Both the position numbers and the translations under genes were made by a program. This document shows, one piece after another, positions 39,923 through 47,125 of a DNA stretch of 64,000 nucleotides (its first letter is position 1; the number at the start of each line of letters is the position of its first letter). A model generated the notes under the pieces. The model did not search any database and was not told the DNA's origin. It saw only the letters and a program-made list of their open reading frames with translations. This DNA comes from Alphaproteobacteria bacterium HGW-Alphaproteobacteria-7 (lineage in GTDB: Bacteria > Pseudomonadota > Alphaproteobacteria > Sphingomonadales > Sphingomonadaceae), in contig PHEB01000008.1 in assembly GCA_002842735.1 (NCBI GenBank), positions 1 to 64,000 on the forward strand, read 5' to 3'.

Positions 39923-39952
39923 CCCCGCCTGCGCGGGGACTCACATTTTTTC
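39923..39952 (+). terminator. Candidate terminator of the esterase gene (half of a repeat)
   Basis: CCCCGC-CTGC-GCGGGG (39923-39938) is followed by ACTCACATTTTTT; the T run begins about eight bases after the stem, so it is not ideal. The unit is also one arm of a repeat related to 46659-46738. It reaches into the end of recF on the other strand. Confidence 0.45.
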
Positions 39953-41029
39953 CACTTCCCCCCCGCTAACCCGCCAGATCGCGGCCTCACCCCTGATCGC
40001 GTCAAAGGGGGCAAGTTCCGTGCCAGTCATCCACACCTGCGCCCGCCCTTCGCGCAAACGGCGGAACAATTCGGCGCGGCGCACCGGGTCGAGATGCGCG
40101 GCGACTTCATCGAGCAGCAGCACGCTGGGCCGCCCGGCCGAGGCCAGCACGCCGTGAGCCAGCGTGATCGCGATCAGCATCGCCTTTTGCTCGCCGGTTG
40201 AACAGGATGCGGCGGGCTGACGGGTGGAGGCCATCACCACCTCCAATTCATCGCGCTGCGGCCCGGTGAGCGCGCGGCCCGCCGCCCGGTCGCGCGGGCG
40301 ATTTCTGGCAAGGTCTGCGCGCAGCGCCACCTCGTCCACCGGCCCGCCGGGGCGATAGGTCAGCGCGGGGCGGGCGAAAGGTTCGGGCGGCAGCGCGGAA
40401 AGTTCGTCCGCCAATCGTGTCACCAGTGCGGCGCGGGTGCGCGCCACCGCCGCGCCGTGATCGGCCGCCTGCGCCTCCACCGCGTCCATCCAATGCGGAT
40501 CGCCGCCGCTTTCCAGCACGCGCCCGCGTTCGCGCAAGGCGGTCTCCAGCGCGTTCACCCGCCGCGCATGGTCGGGCGCTATGGCGAGCGCCATGCGGTC
40601 GATGAACCGCCGCCGCGCACCCGCGCTGTCGGTGAACAATCCGTCCATCGCAGGGGTCAGCCAGCTTAGCGCCAGCCATTCGGCCAGGCTCGCCGCGCTG
40701 GCAGGCGCACCATTGACCCGCACCAGCCGCCGTCCGGGCTGCCCCGCTTCGGTATAGGTGCCGAGCCGCGCAGAGATGGTGCCCGCTTCGGTCAGGCTCG
40801 CCCCGATGGCAAAGGGCAGGGGCGGGTCGTCCGGCGCAGCCCTGCGCGCCACCTCGCCAAGGTTGGCGCGCCGCAGCCCGCGCCCCGGCCCCAGCAGCGA
40901 GAGTGCTTCGAGCAGGTTGGTCTTGCCTGCCCCATTCTCGCCCACCAGCAGGTTGAAATGCGCCGTATCCGCCAGCGTGGTCGCGGCGTGATTGCGGACA
41001 TTTTCAAGGCTGATTTTGCTGAGCGCCAT
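39941..41029 (-). CDS. recF: DNA replication/repair protein RecF
   Basis: This 362-residue SMC-like ATPase loads RecA at gaps with RecO and RecR. Walker A is VGENGAGKTNLLEAL (29-43), the signature region carries STGEQKAMLI, Walker B is VLLLDEVAAHLD. The family opening is ISLENVRNHAATTL. It is separate from dnaA/dnaN here, which is normal in this group. It faces the sigma-54-like promoter region upstream of the two tiny membrane proteins. Confidence 0.95.
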   Translation of the reverse strand: MALSKISLENVRNHAATTLADTAHFNLLVGENGAGKTNLLEALSLLGPGRGLRRANLGEVARRAAPDDPPLPFAIGASLTEAGTISARLGTYTEAGQPGRRLVRVNGAPASAASLAEWLALSWLTPAMDGLFTDSAGARRRFIDRMALAIAPDHARRVNALETALRERGRVLESGGDPHWMDAVEAQAADHGAAVARTRAALVTRLADELSALPPEPFARPALTYRPGGPVDEVALRADLARNRPRDRAAGRALTGPQRDELEVVMASTRQPAASCSTGEQKAMLIAITLAHGVLASAGRPSVLLLDEVAAHLDPVRRAELFRRLREGRAQVWMTGTELAPFDAIRGEAAIWRVSGGEVEKM

Positions 41030-41171
41030 CGTGTCAGCGCGGGTAGCACAGGCGCGCGATTTGGCCAGTGCGGCACGCCTGAAATCCGCAATCCCAATCC
41101 TTGGTGAAAATTCCCAAGCTTTCGTTTGCCTGAACGGGCTGTCGCGGCGGCGAAAGCAAGGAAATGGCGCA

Positions 41172-41184
41172 AATCAGCCATTTT
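41172..41184 (+). promoter_or_regulatory. Possible IHF site upstream of the sigma-54-like promoter
   Basis: AATCAGCCATTTT agrees with WATCARNNNNTTR at all but the final position. It sits seven bases before the -24 element. In sigma-54 promoters IHF bends DNA between activator and polymerase. Short degenerate sites occur by chance, so this is only supportive. Confidence 0.4.
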
Positions 41185-41190
41185 TCGAGT

Positions 41191-41207
41191 TTGGCACGGC
41201 CCGTGCA
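41191..41207 (+). promoter_or_regulatory. Sigma-54-type (-24/-12) promoter
   Basis: TTGGCACGGCCCGTGCA has the invariant GG and GC with ten bases between, and differs from the consensus TGGCACGNNNNTTGCW by one base (GTGC for TTGC). The start of transcription would be near 41218, 52 bases before the first small gene. The inner GCACGG-C-CCGTGC is also a perfect palindrome, so a repressor site is an alternative reading. Confidence 0.62.
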
Positions 41208-41269
41208 AAGTGTTCTGCGTCCCCGGGATGGTCCCGCCGGACAGTAAAATACACCAAGGAGTTACCACC

Positions 41270-41383
41270 ATGTTTGCCCAGGAAGTTTCAAACCGTCTGT
41301 TCGCTGCCGCTTTCTCGGTCGTCATTTCGGCCGCGTTTTTTGCCTATGCGATCGTACCTGCCAGCCCCGGCCTTGTTGCCTGA
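41270..41383 (+). CDS. 37-residue membrane protein, first of a tandem pair
   Basis: The ATG at 41270 follows AAGGAG eight bases upstream. The peptide has a polar N-terminus (MFAQEVSNR), one hydrophobic helix of about 20 residues ending FAYAIVPASPG and a very short tail. It is 37 residues long, like its neighbour at 41423, and the two share the frame MF-x2-E-x3-R ... AAF-x-VV ... FAYAI-x-PASPG. This is too small for routine gene finding. I know no named family. The position behind a sigma-54-like promoter and ahead of a PspC protein suggests a part in envelope stress. Confidence 0.78.
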   Translation: MFAQEVSNRLFAAAFSVVISAAFFAYAIVPASPGLVA

Positions 41384-41422
41384 GCCTGACCTCACCCAAC
41401 TTTCTTAAAAGGATCATTTCCC

Positions 41423-41536
41423 ATGTTCGGCCCCGAAACCAGTGCCCGCTTCGTCTCTGCCGCCTTTGCTGTCGTGTTGACGGTTGCTAGCTTCGCCTAT
41501 GCGATCATCCCCGCCAGCCCCGGCATGATGGCGTAA
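41423..41536 (+). CDS. 37-residue membrane protein, second of a tandem pair
   Basis: The ATG at 41423 is preceded by AAAAGGA at a suitable distance. The peptide MFGPETSAR... ends FAYAIIPASPGMMA and is clearly a paralogue of the preceding one: the same length, a conserved Arg at position 9, the same helix and the same PASPG end. DNA identity is also high, so this is a tandem duplication kept under selection at protein level. Forty-four bases separate it from the pspC-type gene. Confidence 0.78.
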   Translation: MFGPETSARFVSAAFAVVLTVASFAYAIIPASPGMMA

Positions 41537-41580
41537 CCCGCCGCGCCTGCTTCACTATTCGGATATGAGGGATTTTTGAC

Positions 41581-41796
41581 ATGAGCAACATCACCAACCC
41601 CCCCGGTGGCAAGCCGCCGCGCGCCAGCTTCCATCTCGACAAGACCAACGCCAAGGTATTCGGCGTGTGCGCCGGGATTGCCGACTATTTCGGCATTGAT
41701 GCGATGCTGGTGCGGATCGGGTTCGTCGCCGCCACCCTGTTCGGCTTTGGCGCCCCGGTGCTGATCTACCTCGCCGTCGCGCTAATCGCGGATTGA
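41581..41796 (+). CDS. PspC-domain protein
   Basis: This 71-residue protein consists of one PspC domain: FHLDKTNAKVFGVCAGIADYFGIDAMLVRIGFVAATLFGFGAPVLIYLAVALI, with the typical basic start, the GVCAGIADYFG turn and a C-terminal membrane helix. PspC proteins sense membrane stress and, in enterobacteria, recruit PspA. pspA and pspF are not in the window. It appears to be the third gene of the sigma-54-like unit. Confidence 0.9.
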   Translation: MSNITNPPGGKPPRASFHLDKTNAKVFGVCAGIADYFGIDAMLVRIGFVAATLFGFGAPVLIYLAVALIAD

Positions 41797-41808: not shown

Positions 41809-41832
41809 GCGGGCACCTCCAACGGTGCCCGC
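41809..41832. terminator. Hairpin between convergent pspC-type and SDR genes
   Basis: A perfect nine-base stem, GCGGGCACC / GGTGCCCGC, with a six-base loop. There is only a short T run on the plus strand, so termination efficiency is uncertain; position between converging genes supports the role. Confidence 0.6.
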
Positions 41833-46787: not shown

Positions 46788-47125
46788 GTCGGGCAACCGA
46801 CTATGGCGATAAATTGCTGCGTGCAATAGATGCAACGGACCCGGGGGCAGTACCCGGCGGCTCCACCAGAAACGGCGACTTTTCGCCCGTTCTGATGGGG
46901 CCGAACCAGGATCGACGTGTGTTGAAAAGCGTAGTTTTTGCCCGGGCTGAGTAACCCGCATAAGGCTCAAAAACCATAAGTGCCAACGATAACGAAGCAC
47001 TCGCAATCGCTGCGTAATTGATGGGCTAACGCCCTGATATTATTAGGCTAAAAAGCGCGGTTGGACCGACCGGGCAACAGAACGGATACCGGGGCTCCGG
47101 GGGTAGCTAGCAACAGAAACCCCCA
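46788..47125 (+). ncRNA. ssrA: tmRNA, circularly permuted two-piece type
   Basis: The tRNA-like half lies first: a T arm (CCGGG / CCCGG at 46841-46857), the 3' acceptor strand CGGCTCC (46858-46864), A and CCA (46866-46868). After a short spacer the 5' acceptor strand GGGGCCG (46897-46903) pairs with it, including a G-U at the third pair, the alanine identity mark. The coding half follows, with GGATCGACGTGTGTTGAAAAGC typical of alphaproteobacteria. The resume codon is GCC at 46982 and the tag is ANDNEALAIAA with a TAA at 47015-47017. Pseudoknot-forming GC-rich stretches continue to about 47125. The ends are estimates. The product rescues stalled ribosomes with SmpB; the two pieces arise by excision of the spacer. 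Confidence 0.93.

Follow-up and report, generated by a model that had tools for sequence, protein, structure and literature searches.

Two genes of 37 codons each stand in tandem behind a sigma-54-type promoter and ahead of a gene for a PspC protein, in a window (the whole stretch of 64,000 nucleotides that was analysed) that holds no pspA. Does such a locus belong to the phage-shock response, and if so, what would its very small proteins do there? The features on which the answer turns are listed below with their positions in the window.

41101-41117, plus strand: PspF-type enhancer (UAS); inverted repeat of 17 bp, TTGGTGAAAATTCCCAA, with a gap of 73 bp to the -24/-12 element
41191-41207, plus strand: sigma-54 -24/-12 element TTGGCACGGCCCGTGCA, predicted start near 41218
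41219-41242, plus strand: leader hairpin at the 5' end of the predicted mRNA
41270-41383, plus strand: tiny gene 1, 37 aa, one predicted transmembrane helix
41423-41536, plus strand: tiny gene 2, 37 aa, paralogue of tiny gene 1
41581-41796, plus strand: one-domain PspC, 71 aa, without the C-terminal tail of the 125-aa second PspC
41809-41832, no strand: perfect 9-bp inverted repeat without a T run, in the gap where the PspC gene and a short-chain dehydrogenase gene converge

On the upstream side a gene on the minus strand (39941-41029) points away from the operon; from its translation we take it to be recF-like, and the convergent downstream gene is presumably, again by translation, short-chain dehydrogenase-like. 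The repeat at 41809-41832 is a possible transcript end.

The Tiny Genes and the Short PspC

The original prediction, made from the DNA letters, had pointed to two 37-codon reading frames with good ribosome sites and called them paralogues; both frames are present at 41270-41383 and 41423-41536, and the likeness of their products is clear. We regard them as real genes because their dN/dS is low (about 0.26 for tiny gene 1 and 0.19 for tiny gene 2, indicating purifying selection), most substitutions affect third codon positions, and both alternative frames give a pN/pS above 1. These values come from 17 related loci for each gene, namely the first 20 loci minus L011, which has one gene, and L016 and L018, in which the length differs.

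Pfam and NCBIfam scans of the tiny proteins, with E values up to 1, matched no family, those of PspG, PspB and PspD included, in line with the earlier remark that the two sequences match no familiar Psp protein; a comparison with solved structures likewise gave no match. The product of tiny gene 2 is one of two matches to the family profile in the source genome. When a 40-residue member of the family was used as query, 15 database proteins were retrieved, none with a Pfam domain, and their source names are 'hypothetical protein' throughout, apart from one enzyme name that resembles a misannotation.

The third gene had been assigned to a one-domain PspC, and the assignment is borne out by Pfam PF04024 (E=1e-17, 64.1 bits vs a cut-off of 25). 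It fails the full-length model TIGR02978 (57.1 bits vs a cut-off of 104), and an alignment of 52 residues with the long 125-aa PspC of the same genome shows 44% identity. Set against the PspC family as these two models describe it (PF04024; TIGR02978), the short protein has the membrane domain and stops right behind it. Its AlphaFold model (pLDDT 55) is too poor for use.

Promoter, Enhancer and Leader

The -24/-12 element TTGGCACGGCCCGTGCA is found at 41191-41207 just as first described. By itself it is not above chance: 0.27 such elements are expected in the window, 22 of 100 shuffled windows contain one, and genome-wide there are 5 sites vs 4 in the reversed control. The enhancer, which the original prediction had not pointed out, carries more weight. 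When the window is scored with a matrix derived from the pspF/pspA repeats of 12 other genomes, position 41101 comes first of 127,968 window positions, at 22.4 bits vs 16.1 for the runner-up, and the combination of the enhancer half-site CCCAA at 64-80 bp with a -24/-12 element occurs in none of 100 shuffled windows. In a close relative (L002) the enhancer is degenerate, and 101 window positions score equally high.

The gap between enhancer and promoter is also informative. The 73 bp found here equal the 73 bp at the pspA promoter of the source genome, where the pspF-pspA intergenic region, on another contig, holds ATAGTGAAATTTCCCAA at that distance from its own TTGGCAC. In front of E. coli pspA the repeat TTAGTGTAATTCGCTAA, which we take to be the PspF binding site, lies at 63 bp, about one helical turn nearer.

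Control of the promoter by an enhancer-binding protein other than PspF, such as NtrC, has to be considered. The source genome has rpoN, and the PspF model gives seven matches in it with one alone above the cut-off, a count that speaks for such an alternative; that one scores 482 bits (cut-off 443.55) and shares 48% identity with E. coli PspF in an alignment of 337 positions. Against it, the enhancer matches the one between pspF and pspA at equal spacing and resembles the repeat before E. coli pspA, and two other sigma-54-like sites of this genome (L041 and L042) have no such repeat by eye. We therefore give control by another activator hardly any credence.

An IHF-like site had been placed ahead of the promoter as well. 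The strict consensus WATCARNNNNTTR occurs only once in the window, far off at 47027-47039, and an IHF site between enhancer and promoter was thus rejected, the strict consensus being absent at the locus. What stands where the site was claimed is a conserved upstream block, GAATTCxGCCxTTTTT, partly common to the pspA promoter. The phage-shock promoters of E. coli have an IHF site between enhancer and promoter, a trait that we do not treat as defining outside E. coli.

The predicted mRNA begins with a hairpin of -13.5 kcal/mol (z -1.4). Six of 29 leaders were folded, and in the other five, from divergent relatives, a hairpin of different bases is retained (z -2.1 to -3.1). The hairpin may, as a guess, protect the transcript.

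A Probable Second Target of PspF

Within the source genome, CCCAA combined with a promoter at 64-80 bp has two sites, one at the tiny/PspC operon and the other at pspF/pspA. The remark that pspA is missing is thus true of the window and not of the genome, since pspF-pspA lies on another contig with matching enhancer and promoter. Across 61 genomes the same pattern yielded 62 sites and none in the reversed control, and at least one site is present in 33 of the 37 genomes of the genus. By position, 26 sites lie beside pspF/pspA (one genome, G023, is counted here by the neighbouring pspF alone, as its contig ends there), 24 lead to tiny genes with a short PspC, 8 to tiny genes only, and 4 to something else. 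From this pattern we strongly infer that the operon is regulated as a second PspF/sigma-54 operon besides pspF/pspA.

The 8 tiny-only promoters, found by the DNA pattern in 7 genomes of the genus, are followed by one to three tiny genes each, and the roughly 1.4-1.9 kb of sequence read behind them contain no PspC match; all 7 genomes carry a short PspC elsewhere. In a separate case (G021:C1 2686453-2722299; L025, L098), about 35 kb separate the tiny operon from its apparent promoter, which is counted among the 4 other sites; an insertion or rearrangement has perhaps split them.

The pspABC operon of the source genome (G000:C21, L040) resembles our locus in its enhancer and its -24/-12 element, and shares with it the 73-bp spacing and a PspC. 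It differs in that its PspC has 125 aa and a C-terminal tail, it encodes PspA and PspB-like proteins, and a 61-aa leader protein comes first. This leader (L040 1881-2066) is of a conserved hydrophobic kind, about 50-74 aa and of the FWSSKLGHAAMASIAAM type, found between the psp promoter and pspA in all 13 genus loci that were read. Kinship of the 61-aa protein with the tiny family found no support, as the profile comparison gave a probability of 0.2 on a percent scale.

Behind pspC in the same operon we noticed four small ORFs (L040 3776-5014), each with, by eye, a hydrophobic stretch and a coiled-coil-like tail. Together with the PspB-like gene before pspC, they perhaps form an expanded PspB-like set, which would fit the duplication of PspB in some operons that is reported in the accessible part of a survey (PMC11237479).

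A third conserved sigma-54-like site, 10 kb from pspA, was considered as a member of the regulon and set aside: its upstream motif differs (TGTCGGGATNCTTTACA), and a terminator, not a gene, follows. This site (L040 12618-12500, minus strand; G000:C21 near 39101) adjoins grx-like and NUDIX-like genes and precedes about 100 nt with conserved GGTC-bearing stretches and then the strong terminator. The region can be aligned in 9 loci, all of which were chosen for holding the site, and Rfam gave one match to it, below the cut-off (E 0.88). We consider it a candidate sigma-54 small RNA.

Distribution in the Genus, Family and Order

The closest genus-named relatives are Erythrobacter and Porphyrobacter. 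A short PspC is present in 34 of the 37 genus genomes and was not found in G002 (99% complete), G015 (82%) and G023 (72%); as a profile search of G002 gave no tiny-family match either, the operon is dispensable. Each of the best 30 genus loci contains one or more tiny genes, with two or three in 29 of them, and the promoter is found at 29/30. In the best 80 of 129 relatives, all named loci with a short PspC, tiny genes occur in 77 and the promoter in 76, and a lenient pattern detects an enhancer-like site in 71, always at 72-74 bp. The original prediction had made its case depend on conservation beyond the source genome, and the tiny-family profile does find matches in 67 of 298 genomes of the family, belonging to 24 of 96 genera. 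An order-wide profile search detected the tiny family in 49 of 246 genomes, all 49 within Sphingomonadaceae, in a set whose make-up by family was listed only in part.

A search that starts from the promoter reaches further. The near-fixed pattern (CCAA, 71-76 bp) is present in 135 of 199 family genomes, vs 16 of 199 in the reversed control. We took as a sample the first 45 among the matches listed, minus 5 already in hand, leaving 40 unselected hits. Among these listed matches, the first gene encodes a small hydrophobic protein and has a ribosome site in 31 of the 40. By destination, 14 hits lead to pspA (12 of these with a small leader gene first), 16 to small or tiny genes with PspC (14 recognised by motif and 2 by comparison with the tiny-only loci), 3 to a first gene of the leader type, behind which no pspA was seen, and 7 to nothing comparable.

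The nine sampled hits without a small first gene, again among the matches listed, are L220-L224, L231, L242, L243 and L245, of which L242 and L243 are pspA promoters. The enhancers were scored with a second matrix, for which 13 pspA sites and 29 tiny sites from the genus were used, and the remaining seven proved to have the weakest enhancers among these matches, at most 0.9 bits; two of the seven hold unrelated palindromes, and the matrix score was used as the criterion. An eighth low scorer, L225, is a pspA promoter with its repeat at a different spacing. Of the 32 listed hits with at least 2.9 bits, 30 begin with a small gene and the other 2 have pspA directly behind the promoter. In an additional set of 20 loci, chosen by eye with apparent pspA promoters avoided and therefore not a fair sample, all 20 promoters (one a pspA promoter) are followed by a small gene, vs 0.2% of random window positions and 5.5% of random positions in the same loci.

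The small proteins at the family hits are from 27 aa upward and are encoded in arrays of up to four; many have sequences that the tiny profile misses genome-wide. At L244 (G167) and L246 (G227), arrays of four hydrophobic genes of 28-29 aa stand ahead of a PspC-like gene. Two further promoter hits (G043:C4 and G008:C17) were discarded, with a spacing outside 71-76 bp and no tiny match. In another family, a sigma-54-like site (L181, G038:C59) lies ahead of a 130-aa exported-looking protein and probably belongs to a different regulon.

Sequence Pattern and Predicted Topology

Residues were counted in 219 tiny sequences; since the family profile served to pick them, part of the conservation is a product of that choice. 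Small residues occupy positions 12, 13, 16, 20, 25, 27 and 31 in at least 99% of them. Arginine or lysine is found at position 9, ahead of the hydrophobic stretch, in 199/219, while P30 and P33 are almost invariant and form a Pro-x-x-Pro tail, and K/R is absent beyond residue 28. For tiny protein 1, AlphaFold2 predicts a single helix from residue 2 to 28 with a mean pLDDT of 84. The spacing of four residues between positions 12, 16 and 20 is of the kind used in helix packing.

With the positive-inside rule as a guide to membrane topology, the N terminus is probably inside and the short Pro-x-x-Pro tail outside. This orientation is predicted from the single Arg/Lys and the K/R-free tail, because the charges at the N terminus almost cancel (K/R 212 vs D/E 194 over the 219 sequences).

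Alanine is found at position 25 in 217/219 sequences and at position 27 in 209/219, followed mostly by I-V/I-P-A-S-P. An A-x-A motif is a mark of signal peptidase I sites, and the conserved A25-x-A27 would also suit such a site, which would contradict an intact membrane protein. The tiny proteins would then be precursors with a signal peptide of residues 1-27 ending in A-x-A, from which a peptide of about ten residues is freed as a damage signal in the periplasm. The alanine pair and the Arg/Lys ahead of the hydrophobic stretch both fit this account. It sits poorly with residues 34-36 being among the least conserved, and with the divergent small proteins under a like promoter that have no clear A-x-A, for instance those of 27 and 28 aa; we judge it improbable.

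What the Tiny Proteins May Do

We put a probability of about 60% on the reading that the locus is a second, unlinked PspF/sigma-54 (phage-shock) operon of Sphingomonadaceae, which encodes tiny single-pass inner-membrane effectors and a tail-less PspC. Damage to the inner membrane would cause PspA to let go of PspF, as described for E. coli, and free PspF would bind the enhancer at 41101-41117 and activate sigma-54 polymerase at 41191-41207, pspA being switched on too. The operon would yield the two tiny single-pass membrane proteins and a PspC cut down to its membrane domain. Through their conserved small-residue face (A12, S/A16, S/T20) the tiny proteins could oligomerise, and they might act as membrane effectors, the part ascribed to PspG in E. 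coli, and stiffen or seal the bilayer or limit leakage. The tail-less PspC might bind or place them without signalling to PspA. The role as membrane effectors is a hypothesis based on analogy with PspG and YohP, on the tandem copies and on the tiny-only operons. The partnership with PspC is uncertain, given that at the 8 tiny-only promoters no PspC is adjacent.

The original prediction had the tiny proteins modulate PspC, and in a stronger form they would be regulatory partners of both the short and the long PspC, binding the transmembrane part and tuning the release of PspF, that is, feedback and not protection. The gene order lends this some appeal, with tiny genes before a short PspC at 24 of the 62 promoter hits in 61 genomes and with PspC at 16 of the 40 family hits among the matches listed; moreover, the 7 genus genomes with tiny-only operons also carry a short PspC. 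Those same 7 genomes provide the objection, as eight of their promoters drive tiny genes with no PspC match in the downstream sequence read, so the tiny proteins are not simply cis-acting accessories of PspC. Tandem duplication to 2-4 copies suggests in addition that amount matters and not one-to-one partnering. Regulatory partnership is a possible reading that we consider doubtful.

Membrane damage by the tiny proteins themselves is the opposite conception, in which they would lower the proton-motive force and bring about dormancy under stress; the comparison class is type I toxins such as TisB. Size, hydrophobicity and a stress-type promoter all fit, and E. coli YohP, in the accessible part of its description, lowers the membrane potential and induces Psp proteins (PMC12719787). 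Purifying selection, tandem copies with their own ribosome sites and the frequent link to PspC speak against it, and an Rfam scan bearing on an antitoxin RNA gave no match. We see very little likelihood in this conception.

The effector reading could be extended to a family-wide second arm of the phage-shock response. Arrays of one to four tiny transmembrane proteins would differ so much from genus to genus that their sequences are no longer recognisably related, with promoter, place, size and the usual tail-less PspC staying constant, and some members may be processed at A-x-A, giving a periplasmic peptide that reports inner-membrane damage to PspC. Taken as a whole, this extension is speculative and we think it unlikely.

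Significance and Comparison with Known Systems

The proposal of a phage-shock-type operon of sphingomonads behind a sigma-54 promoter, to which a PspF-type enhancer can be added, is supported by inference; as for its being undescribed, we found no published account of the tiny family or the operon in the collection of open-licence PubMed Central papers searched, and absence beyond these is unproven. A large survey of Psp partners (PMC11237479), in the portion accessible, contains no tiny proteins of such kind, and Sphingomonas and Erythrobacter are unmentioned in the accessible main text of this survey and of PMC9239133. A well-studied stress response thus seems to possess an undescribed branch in many Sphingomonadaceae, and much of the PspF regulon of this family, with two main operons named, is predicted from DNA alone. 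The branch brings with it a family of very small proteins of the membrane, for which an inducing condition can be predicted. In E. coli the roles of PspD and PspE are described as unclear and PspG as incompletely understood, according to the accessible part of PMC9239133; having small proteins in their own separate operon makes the role of small Psp proteins directly testable. The promoter-first search is also a route to short genes that similarity searches overlook.

The nearest known thing is E. coli pspG, a separate PspF target. Like the tiny proteins as predicted here, PspG is small, resides in the inner membrane and is expressed from a PspF/sigma-54 promoter of its own at a distance from pspA, and it is regarded as an effector with no major regulatory role in the accessible parts of two papers (PMC2763126; PMC9239133). 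It has two predicted helices, whereas the tiny proteins have one, are encoded in tandem, usually with PspC, and have no Pfam match. By description, the 27-aa YohP of E. coli is a further likeness, being a tiny stress-linked membrane protein that dimerises and alters membrane fluidity and potential, as stated in the accessible part of PMC12719787. The two differ in their place in the response: YohP acts as an inducer of the Psp response, while the tiny genes are apparently members of the Psp regulon.
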